DNA from: Kalmusia sp. IMI 367209 | Lineage: Eukaryota; Ascomycota; Dothideomycetes; Pleosporales; Didymosphaeriaceae | Direction of reading: 5' to 3' | Length of the DNA: 64,000 nucleotides | Assembly (NCBI GenBank): GCA_027946365.1 | Contig: JAPEUQ010000005.1 | Location: 1,178,001 to 1,242,000 of the forward strand | Part shown: positions 15,514-20,195 of the stretch, piece by piece | How positions within the stretch are numbered: position 1 is the stretch's first letter | Layout: the number at the start of each line of letters is the position of its first letter | Program-made: the position numbers and the translations under genes | The notes under the pieces: generated by a model | The model's database searches: none | What the model was told of the DNA's origin: nothing | Seen by the model: the letters and a program-made list of their open reading frames with translations, nothing else

Positions 15514-16839
15514 ATGGATCCCCCGTCGAAATTAGCCGATGGCGCCGGCCATGAGCAGCAAGGGAATGTAAGTACTTGCGCAGTCCACATATGAAGTATG
15601 AAACCTGAAGTTACCAATAAGTGTTTACACAGATTTCGGGCATGAATGTTTCACGGAAATGCCGGCAACTCAAGAGATGCTTCGATGAAGACGGTGATGA
15701 GGAAAACCCAACCACTCTTCCCGCAGACCGCTCACCCAAGCACAGCGTCGAATGGATAGGGCCAATGAATTCGATGAGTGAGAAGTCAAATGTCACAACA
15801 AGTGCATCCACATGCACATTCTTGCCCCCGGGTAAGGATAGGTACTTCAAGTCACGACGCATAGAGGATAGAAGCGCTATCGAGAAGCCGTGGCTCACGG
15901 CAAAAAGAGACCCCCGAGAGAAATGAGTAACTATCATTCCTATGATTGGCTTACTCCTTGGCATCGGCTTTTCCGGCTTCTTGATCTGGGACGGCTTTCA
16001 TAGTGTTTCTCGGCACAAGTACTGCCCTATCATGGTTGATGACTTCTCTTTGGGTAGTCTAAACCATACGAAGTGGAACACTGAGATCGAGGTCGGCGGT
16101 TACGGGTGAGCGATCCTTTCTAAGTAGCTATGCGAGCCTCTTTGCATTCGTCAGTTTGCATTGGCTTGGTACATCATATGCTATCAAACTCTCGCACTCG
16201 CATTTGACACCTTTACTAACGTTTTCACAAGTGTTGGTCAATTTGACCAGACAACTAACTCGCCCGAGAACGTGTTTGTCAAAGATGGTTTTCTCTACCT
16301 CAGGCCTACACTCCAAGACGCGTCGCTCATTGAAAAGGATTACACGGTCGACCTCCGTGGCCAAGGTTGCACGAGCAGAGACTGGTTCGACTGCGTGGCC
16401 ACCACCAACACCACAAACGGCACAATAGTCAATCCGGTCAGGTCTGCCAGAATCAACACTAGAATCGGAGGAAACATAAAATACGGGCGTGTCGAAGTTG
16501 TCGCTAGGCTTCCCCAAGGTGACTGGCTTTGGCCTTCCATCATGTTGCTGCCAACGAACAACACCTACGGAGAATGGCCCATGTCTGGCCAGATCTACAT
16601 CGTATAGTCGCGTGGTAATAACTATACCTATAAGCAGGGCGGCAACAATATCATCGCCAGTACCCTACACTTCGGACCGAACGAAGAACTCGACGGGTGG
16701 TGGCGCAACAATGTCAAAAGCGCGGCTTACCATGAGACCTTCTCAGACAGATTCCACAAGTTTGGCGTTGAGGTATGTTTTCCCTCGCATACAAGAACAC
16801 AAAGATTCCACGTGCGTGTCGCGTACCTGGGGTATCCTA

Positions 16840-16925
16840 ATGCATGATACACAAATGCAGACGTCCGTGAACCTGTCGCCGGCTGCGCACAGCAAAGCTG
16901 GACAAGCCACTTGTGTATCATGTAT
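16840..16925. repeat. 15-bp inverted repeat in GH16 intron 3
   Basis: 16840-16854 (atgcatgatacacaa) and 16911-16925 (ttgtgtatcatgtat) are reverse complements with one mismatch, separated by 56 bp, wholly inside intron 3. The right arm begins the hairpin-like repeat at 16911-16954. The layout suggests a small inserted foldback element. Confidence 0.65.
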
Positions 16926-16954
16926 CTTGGGGTAACTCAGTGTACGATAAATAA
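16911..16954. repeat. Short hairpin-like repeat, copy 1 (GH16 intron 3)
   Basis: The 44 bp align without gaps to 17176-17219 at roughly 70% identity, mostly with transition differences. The shared core has TGTATYATGTA, then GGTRACTCRG. Copies 3 and 4 near 58.8-59.0 kb share TGTATTAT and RCTCRSTGTA. Confidence 0.6.
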
Positions 16955-17175
16955 GTATACGTGTCTAGGATACACCGCCTTCTCTATGGAAAAGGCCGCC
17001 AGCTGCTAATATTCACGCAGTGGACCGAGAAATACATCTTCACCTACATCGACACTCGACTCCTCCAAGTCTCCTACACCCGCTTCAACAAGCCATTCTG
17101 GCAGTACGGAGAGTTCCCCACAGCTGACAGGAACGGGTAAGTGTCTATAATGAAAAAGCTTGTTGGCAGTCGGTG

Positions 17176-17219
17176 TTGTGTATTATGTAGCCTGAGGTGA
17201 CTCGGGTTATAATACATGA
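17176..17219. repeat. Short hairpin-like repeat, copy 2 (GH16 intron 4)
   Basis: The sequence is close to self-complementary: TGTATTAT pairs with ATAATACA, and CCTGAG pairs with CTCGGG (one G-T) around a GTGA loop. It lies inside the 129-nt fourth intron of the GH16 pseudogene and aligns with copy 1. Confidence 0.65.
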
Positions 17220-17563
17220 TCAGATTACCCTAGTACTGTAGATAAGTTACTAACTTATGCTCTAGGACCCGCTTCATAAACCCCTGGGAGTACGGCACCT
17301 ACGCCACCCCCTTCGACCAAGACTTCCACCTCGTTCTCAAAGTCGGCGCCGGCGCGACAAACGGCTGGTTTGAGGACGGTCAATCGGGCAAACCCTGGTT
17401 AGACCGAAATGCTAACGCGAAGCTCCGATTTTGGCAGGCGCGGGACCAGTGGTATCCCACATGGGCTCGCCGCGGCTGGATGGAGGTCAAAAGTGTCAAG
17501 ATGTGGCAGCAGGCGCCGCATAACGGCTGCAAGTTGTCAGAGGCACAGCGGTTTGTTGGGTGA

Positions 17564-18145: not shown

Positions 18146-20195
18146 CTAGCTCATCAGAAGCCTACATACACTCCCAACATTTAAACCCCTCAAATCCGCA
18201 TAATGCTGCCCAACACCCAAAAACACTACGGGAATACCCGTCGCGTGCACCATACTAACCAACGTGCCCACCATATCACCTACAGTATCACACTTGCTAA
18301 TAACGAAGCCATCCAGGCCTCTGCCCGGTCCAAAACTTTGGTTGAAGTTGCGCGCCTGCGCAACCGAGTCAGAGCCCACGAGCGCCTCGCCTACCATGAG
18401 AATCTTATCTGGCTTAGCCAGCTTAGCGAACTTTTCAAGTGACGACATGAGGCGTTGATCGTTATGTCTTCGTCCTGCAGTATCAATAAGCACCACATTG
18501 AAGTCGGTCTTTGCGGCATGAGCAACGGCGTCGGCGGCGATATTCGCCGCATCTTTGCCGTACCCCTTCTCAAAGAGGTCGACCTGACCGCCCTCGCGCT
18601 TGCTAAGTTCCTGGAGATTGCGCACATGAACGCGTAGTTGCTCGACGGCGCCGGAACGGAAGGTATCAGCTGCGGCAATGAGGACGCGGTGGTGGTTCTG
18701 CAGGAGGAAGAAGGCAATTTTGGAGAGGTTTGTGGATTTACCGACGCCGTTGACACCGACTATGGAGAGGACATAGGGGCGACCCGAGGCGTTTACAGCT
18801 TGGATTTCGCGAAGGAGGTCAAGAGAAGAGGTAGGGGTGAGGATTTTTGTGAGTGCCTTTTCCATGGAAGTGCGGATAGTAGCTTCGACGGCTGCAGGGG
18901 TCAACCAGCGGTTCAGAAAGATTAAGATGATACTTACTCGTGAAGGAGCTTGTCTTAAGACCGACGAGATCTCGTTTAACGCTCTCGCATAACCGCACCG
19001 CGGCCTCTCGGGCCACGTTCTTCTTGAGTAGATGATCTTCCATGCCCTTCAGGGGCTTTGCGAGGTCGTCATCGGTAAGTGTTTTCCCACCGACTACGTT
19101 TCGGAATAGGCCTCCTATTGCGCCTAGACTCGAGCCTACGAGGCCGCCTCCCGACGATGTAGATGTGGATGTCTGCTTCTTCGCATTCTGCTCCGCTATT
19201 ATCTGATCCATCTCGAGATCTAGATCCTTGAGCACAAACTGGCCTTTGCCCGTTCTGCTGCCCCATGTTTCGGGGTTGATTTCTGCTATCGCTTCGCTTT
19301 CCGATGCTTCGTCCCGGAGGTCAGATTGTGAATAGTCCAAGACCATGGAAGGATCCTCCTCTTCTGCACCAAAGTCTCCCCACACACGATTCTTCTTAGT
19401 AGAGCCTTTTCCCTTTCGCTTCACCGAAGCCTCGTCTCCTGATGATGCAGGGGCAGAATTCAAGGCCGCAGCCTTTTTTTTGCCTCTTCTCGACAACTTT
19501 GCGCCTGGTCCGGCCTTGGCAGTGAGCAGATGGCTCTGCGCAGGCGTGGTCGGCCGCGATGTATCTGGTGTGGGCACCGGCGTCGAATCAGCGGACGTAT
19601 CGTACAGTGGCTTCTGTTGTTTCTGGAGGATGGGCGGCCTCGGCAGGCTTTCGTCTGCGCTCTCGTTATCTATACTAGACGGAGGGGTGAGCTTCACGCC
19701 TGGTGCCGAGGAGCCGCCATCGCTCTGCCCCTCCAATTCCTGCATCTGGCGCTCAAAGTAGGGTGCAAATTTGTCACAATTCACCACACTAGTGTGTTTA
19801 TTGCTCAGCTGCTCGCCGTACAAGCCGACAAAGAGAGCGCGTATATTGTCGAGGAGCTTGTCTAGCCATGTCATATGGACGAGTGACTGGTATACGGCCT
19901 AGACAAGCGTCAGTCCTCCTCGTAGACTGGTAGATTGCAGCTCAGGCAGCATAGGTCCAATGCGTCCACATACCACGAATATGAGCCCCAAGTCCTTTGC
20001 AGTTGTCCACTTCAATGTGTAACCCTCCTTTCGGTACGTCGGTTTCGAGCCGGCATCTTCTTGCTGGGGCTGCACACGCTCCTCGATGAAGACATCGCGG
20101 ATGAGGCTGTTGATGATGTGTGGGCCAACGGGGGCATATTTGCGCGACCACAGCACGACGCCCGACGTGGTCAAAATCTCGAAAGTGTCCAGCAT
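18146..20195 (-). CDS. SRP101: Signal recognition particle receptor alpha subunit (docking protein)
   Basis: Three exons (20195-19974, 19898-18938, 18891-18146), with introns of 75 and 46 nt, give 642 residues. The N-terminal 130 residues are the longin-like SRX domain (FEILTTSGVVLWSRKYAPV, YTLKWTTAKDLGLIFV) that binds the beta subunit at the ER membrane. A charged Ser/Thr/Pro-rich linker with Lys-rich patches (SRRGKKKAAAL) follows, then a short four-helix N domain and the SRP GTPase G domain: SIVGVNGVGKSTNLSKIAFF (P-loop), AAADTFRSGAVEQL, VLIDTAGRRHNDQRLM, the TKxD-type SKCDTVGDMVG, and the closing GVGQHYADLRGLNV. All nucleotide-binding motifs look intact. The protein pairs with SRP54 to deliver ribosomes to the translocon. 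It is divergent from YIF1, another early secretory gene. Confidence 0.95.

Follow-up and report, generated by a model that had tools for sequence, protein, structure and literature searches.

The window, a stretch of 64,000 nucleotides of the genome of Kalmusia sp. IMI 367209, contains a GH16 gene at positions 15514–17563 of the forward strand (Table 1). Splicing and translation of the window gave five exons and four introns without any frameshift; all four introns have GT-AG borders, as expected from an earlier note on this DNA, in which the splice sites were described as kept. The spliced gene comprises 494 codons, its own stop counted in, and its reading frame is open from the ATG to this stop except at codons 116 (TGA) and 301 (TAG). 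Intron 3 (248 nt) carries an 18-nt inverted repeat (16840–16857 and 16908–16925), and a 42-nt stretch at 16911 in this intron is seen again in intron 4 (17176) with 74% identity. An inserted element, to which the inverted repeat had pointed, was rejected because the 171 nt around the repeat match nothing else in the genome. Neighbouring open stretches match the domains FAD_binding_2, Mpv17/PMP22, SRP receptor alpha and YIF1. The SRP receptor alpha match (18149–19898, reverse strand) is split between two open stretches that overlap and carry SRP-alpha_N/SRP54_N and SRP54 domains; the two most likely belong to a single gene that has an intron. The assembly totals 42,784,582 bases in 30 contigs. 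Its description in PMC10027605, where the fungus appears as cf. Kalmusia sp. IMI 367209, an endophyte of the Didymosphaeriaceae among 15 endophyte strains, gives 30 contigs, 42.78 Mb, 208x short-read and 27x long-read coverage, polishing with Pilon and annotation with Funannotate.

Table 1. Features of the GH16 gene in the window (positions are those of the window).
Feature	Position	Strand	Basis or comparison
Exon 1, start of the N-terminal tail	15514..15567	+	Followed by GTAAGT
Exon 2, N-terminal tail, transmembrane helix and start of the GH16 domain	15633..16105	+	Flanked by CAG and GTGAGC
Codon 116, in-frame TGA directly upstream of the membrane helix	15924..15926	+	Trp in 131/131 aligned relatives
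Likely single transmembrane helix	15930..16004	+	Homology to helix 49–79 of the P0001 model
Exon 3, core of the GH16 domain with the former active site	16232..16772	+	Splicing
Codon 280, Met at the position of a conserved Trp on the neighbouring strand	16542..16544	+	Trp in 124/132 aligned rows
Codon 296, CAG (Gln) where the nucleophile Glu is expected	16590..16592	+	Gln also in P0001–P0003
Codon 298, TAC (Tyr) where the helper Asp is expected	16596..16598	+	Private to the IMI 367209 genome; Ser in Bimuria
In-frame GT...AG stretch, 36 nt, 12 codons missing from P0005	16602..16637	+	P0005 compared with the window
Codon 301, TAG (stop) where the acid/base Glu is expected	16605..16607	+	Gln in 4/4 intact sister proteins
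Exon 4	17021..17136	+	Splicing
Exon 5, with the normal stop at its end	17266..17563	+	Splicing

The fold of the protein was examined on the AlphaFold model of P0001, an intact relative from Karstenula rhodostoma. In this model (mean pLDDT 83.9), a GH16 sandwich comes after one helix (residues 49–79); the model is closest to laminarinases (Foldseek match 3iln, E 2.9e-18). It also matches PDB 4wzf, a GH16 fold named "pseudo beta-1,3-glucanase" by its depositors; however, 4wzf is bacterial and distant, with 13% identity in the fold alignment. In a Pfam scan of 8 proteins with E up to 0.01, no domain other than PF00722 (cut-off 22) was found: the intact relatives P0001–P0004 scored 26.6–30.4 bits, the window protein, with X at the stops, 21.1 bits, slightly below the cut-off, and P0005, the public model of this gene, 24.1 bits. 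The precomputed Pfam column gives PF26113 for most relatives and leaves it out for P0001–P0005; our scan reported PF26113 for none of the 8 proteins, P0009 included. The window gene is probably a member of subfamily GH16_4.

The active-site strand reads, from 16587, GGC CAG ATC TAC ATC GTA TAG TCG CGT GGT AAT, that is to say, G-Q-I-Y-I-V-stop-S-R-G-N, exactly as claimed before. The lesions are not confined to the three catalytic codons: their clustering is real (see below), but the TGA at codon 116, which the earlier note does not list, and Met280 lie elsewhere. Many other random lesions across the gene, which the earlier note named as evidence against its reading, are at most weakly in evidence, as one further stop and no frameshift were found.

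Protein searches yielded the best 120 of 1334, the best 120 of 1294 and the best 120 of 4073 matches. We built an alignment of 132 rows, made up of the window and 131 out of 135 proteins; P0005, P0006, P0101 and P0020 were left out as incomplete, duplicated or over-long models. The three catalytic positions are E-D-E in 124 of the 132 rows, and the eight exceptions are the window, P0001–P0004, P0043, P0046 and P0064. The closest intact relatives among the matches listed differ from the E-x-D-x-x-E motif of active enzymes as follows: (i) P0001 of Karstenula rhodostoma, P0002 of Paraphaeosphaeria sporulosa and P0003 of P. minitans have Q-D-Q, with the motif strands QIDIVQ, QIDIAQ and QIDIAQ; (ii) P0004 of Bimuria novae-zelandiae has E-S-Q, with the strand EISIMQ; and (iii) the window has Q-Y-stop. 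Trp280 is missing in the same five rows, in which it is replaced by M (window), I, I, I and T. It is also absent from two E-D-E rows (F and S), and the loss of Trp280 alone is therefore no mark of a dead enzyme. P0001–P0004, at 428 to 515 residues, are predicted proteins with full-length frames in the public gene models, in other words intact proteins whose catalytic residues are lost, that is, pseudoenzymes; the window copy itself is broken. Orthologues naturally carrying Gln or Tyr, which had been named as evidence against a directed loss, do exist for Gln (in three as Q-D-Q, in Bimuria as E-S-Q), but none of these four proteins has Tyr298. This Tyr and both stops are private to the IMI 367209 genome when compared with the four intact sister proteins.

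The acid/base Glu is also lost in P0043 of Byssothecium (E-D-A), P0046 of Sporormia (E-D-H) and the metagenome protein P0064 (G-D-T), as well as in P0255 of Myriangium (E-D-Q), which is among the 120 listed relatives (best 120 of 4073) of a paralogue on contig 30 of the IMI 367209 genome. These four losses appear to be independent of each other. Among the 120 listed relatives of the contig-30 paralogue, 118 are E-D-E; P0202, which reads K-R-N and looks like a mispredicted frame, was scored as non-E-D-E in this count.

Trees were built from 77 rows (74 of the 135 proteins, the window and two paralogues) and from 30 rows chosen from these 77. With the four trait columns (296, 298, 301 and 280) masked, the window and P0001–P0004 form one clade, supported at 100/100. 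Its stem is long, with 0.46 changes per column in the 30-row tree and 0.52 in the 77-row tree. Trp280 is absent from all five members of this clade, each of which also lacks two or more of the three catalytic acids; the frames of four members are full-length. Inside the clade, the window is basal in the 30-row tree with weak support (89/70); its placement with Karstenula/Paraphaeosphaeria is not rejected (p-AU 0.355), whereas its placement with Bimuria is (p-AU 0.039). Judged from these sequences, the loss of catalytic activity most probably dates back to the common ancestor of the clade or close to it. The loss would have been stepwise, because the members differ in the acids kept: Bimuria retains Glu296, and Karstenula and the two Paraphaeosphaeria species retain Asp298. 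Separate losses within the clade would also be compatible with these residues. The TAG at codon 301 most likely arose from a Gln codon; if the window is truly basal, it may have come straight from a Glu codon. The earlier note had derived all three codons from an E-D-E enzyme by three G-to-C or G-to-T changes private to this lineage. This path is unlikely, as intact sisters have Gln at 296, at 301 or at both: Gln296 is found in three of these species and Gln301 in four.

The stops allow an estimate of when the gene broke. About 4.4% of random substitutions in the window coding sequence create a stop, and two stops with zero frameshifts fit a neutral divergence of about 0.005–0.03 and are unlikely above 0.05, under the assumption of indel to substitution ratios of 0.05–0.15. 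Two stops without a frameshift thus suggest a recent break. In the protein trees, the terminal branch of the window (0.23–0.26) is close to that of Karstenula (0.20–0.21), and we therefore infer that most of the window divergence accrued while the protein was still constrained. The gene has the attributes of a unitary pseudogene: stops at codon 116 (TGA) and codon 301 (TAG), four introns kept and one DNA match in the genome.

The substitutions are not scattered evenly over the conserved positions. Across the 124 E-D-E relatives, 118 columns are at least 97% conserved; the window departs from them at 9, among which are all 3 catalytic columns (hypergeometric P 3e-4, with columns treated as independent). 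The same tendency is found in the four sister proteins (P 0.015–0.027) and in P0064 (P 0.009), and is not found in P0043 and P0046, which have one loss each (P 0.12 and 0.17). Within the 118 columns, the changes found in the window only, where all four sisters have the family residue, are just W116stop and V423A. The view that random decay of an active enzyme is a poor account of the catalytic lesions is thus borne out by a clustering beyond chance, and this clustering is explained by a changed constraint on the active site of an otherwise conserved protein.

Exon 3 has no second DNA match anywhere in the IMI 367209 genome. The two nearest paralogues, on contigs 2 and 30, are distant and both E-D-E; the TAG reported in the match to the contig-2 paralogue is the last codon but two, after the C-terminal GGC, and was dismissed as a lesion because it is the normal stop. 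Among the 120 listed, proteins of the contig-30 type with E-D-E include P0136 of Didymosphaeria variabile and P0137 of P. minitans, so that P. minitans has an E-D-E paralogue alongside its Q-D-Q gene (in different gene sets, PMIN04 and PMIN06). Judged by its place in the trees and by a search of the IMI 367209 genome only, the window gene is most plausibly the orthologue of the E-D-E gene found in other Pleosporales, rather than a spare recent duplicate. Over the gene, GC is 45–52%, TpA/ApT is 0.88 (0.70 in the window) and (CpA+TpG)/(ApC+GpT) is 1.08 (1.21 in the window). This dinucleotide shift is slight and RIP-ward and falls short of the usual RIP thresholds. RIP was rejected as a cause, given the GC and dinucleotide ratios, which carry no strong signature, and the single copy of the gene.

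These observations lead us to conclude, with a probability of roughly 0.85, that the locus is a recent unitary pseudogene whose direct ancestor was most likely a GH16 pseudoenzyme of a Didymosphaeriaceae clade and not an active glucanase. An active enzyme struck at its three catalytic residues, for instance by conversion from a damaged donor or by selection against activity, would likewise explain why the changes at conserved columns cluster more than chance allows (P 3e-4). The inactive state is, however, common to the clade, with Q-D-Q or E-S-Q in intact relatives; the four closest of those listed already lack most catalytic acids, so a directed hit on a working enzyme, as the earlier note had it, does not fit. 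Its converted donor fares no better: no donor was found in the genome, where exon 3 is without a second DNA match and the two nearest paralogues are E-D-E. Neither the GC nor the slightly shifted dinucleotide ratios amount to a strong RIP signature. We consider directed or selected inactivation the least probable of the explanations weighed here. Sequencing or assembly error, or editing of the source sequence, in an otherwise active gene is hardly more credible. It would account for three catalytic lesions inside 18 bp, but Gln296 and the loss of Glu301 are present in proteins of other species, which makes an edited source sequence unneeded. Indels are the commoner long-read error, and the gene contains none. 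The 208x short-read coverage and Pilon polishing given in PMC10027605 also speak against error.

The public gene model of this locus, P0005 (N0V90_005710), conceals both stops: it begins past the TGA, and the residues spanning the TAG are missing. The VGQFDQ...YLR stretch and the membrane helix are absent from it as well. P0005 is a model of the kind that would be expected if a shortened, GH16-like protein without the acid/base region were still expressed, a downstream start and a 36-nt mini-intron (16602–16637) avoiding both stops. The skipped stretch is in frame and bounded by GT...AG, and on the P0001 model it covers the end of the catalytic strand (its last three residues) and the greater part of the next loop. 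On the other side, 36 nt is less than the usual ascomycete intron size, and the loss of the VGQFDQ...YLR stretch and of the membrane helix counts against this reading. According to PMC10027605, annotation relied on ab initio predictors and on proteins and ESTs of related taxa, and the term "RNA-seq" is absent from its main text. Skipping of 16602–16637 is probably a gene prediction artefact, and we regard continued expression of a shortened protein as very unlikely, though less so than error or directed inactivation. If RNA proved the mini-intron real, the locus would be a shortened pseudoenzyme. For the preferred reading, a pseudogene derived from a pseudoenzyme, the inactivation common to the intact sisters means that the suggestion of catalysis lost before pseudogenisation is most likely right.

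In the ancestral protein, a short N-terminal tail would have been followed by one membrane helix and a GH16 beta-sandwich, the catalytic acids of which had been replaced, mostly by Gln. The sandwich may have been turned toward the cell wall, with a groove that still bound beta-1,3-glucan, so that the protein would have acted as a membrane-anchored lectin, sensor or decoy, and hydrolysis would have been carried by the older E-D-E paralogues still present in the genome. The protein would then have become dispensable in this lineage; Asp298 would have changed to Tyr and the two stops would have arisen, with too little time for frameshifts. A wall-facing glucan lectin, sensor or decoy is suggested by the membrane-anchored fold of the model with its Glu pair changed to Gln; the loss of Trp280 could have weakened glucan binding. 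The "lectin-like descendant" raised as an option in the earlier note is thus right as regards catalytic loss, as judged by sequence; such a protein may also have bound glucan.

Arthropod beta-glucan recognition proteins (beta-GRPs) have a separate N-terminal glucan-binding domain, CBM39; no such domain was found in the 8 proteins scanned, which have PF00722 alone (E up to 0.01). Passages of PMC6403176 describe beta-GRPs/GNBPs as GH16 proteins without the catalytic Glu pair that are thought to bind beta-1,3-glucan. These are insect immune receptors, whereas the fungal proteins have one N-terminal helix, which we read as a membrane anchor. Another likeness, by description, is offered by Eng4/Eng5 of Aspergillus fumigatus, GH16 proteins with a transmembrane helix and no signal peptide that were suggested to face the wall and were placed in the MLG1-glucanase group (PMC3627985). 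In the account of GH16_4 by Viborg et al. 2019 (PMC6827312), about 9% of 1,900 members, from Metazoa and Fungi, are without one or both catalytic residues. Like the window clade, they are beta-1,3-glucanase relatives with catalytic residues lost. By contrast, those losses did not sort into monophyletic groups, on data that the paper does not show, and the five members of the window clade, from four genera, fall into one supported clade. Our literature search found no paper on fungal GH16 pseudoenzymes under that name; PMC6827312 does mention fungal members with losses.

A broader reading, which we put forward tentatively and at less than even odds, is that the Didymosphaeriaceae orthologue of a membrane-anchored GH16 beta-1,3-glucanase became a retained glucan lectin or sensor through near-isosteric Glu-to-Gln changes at the nucleophile and the acid/base, as a counterpart of the arthropod beta-glucan recognition proteins. 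The losses in Byssothecium, Sporormia, the metagenomic protein and Myriangium would each be a further, separate case of such a change, with the window recording a lectin later discarded.

The public gene model P0005 should be flagged, as it conceals two stop codons. A pattern in which all catalytic residues are hit can come from history, from enzyme to pseudoenzyme to pseudogene, without any directed event. What is new here is a recent pseudogene added to the loss trait already reported for GH16_4 and insects; the Q-D-Q/E-S-Q clade is the more useful lead. This small fungal GH16 clade with replaced acids is a place to test how catalysis can be lost while the protein is kept, and, as a clade of pseudoenzymes and possibly a fungal beta-glucan lectin, it is worth more than the broken copy in the window.
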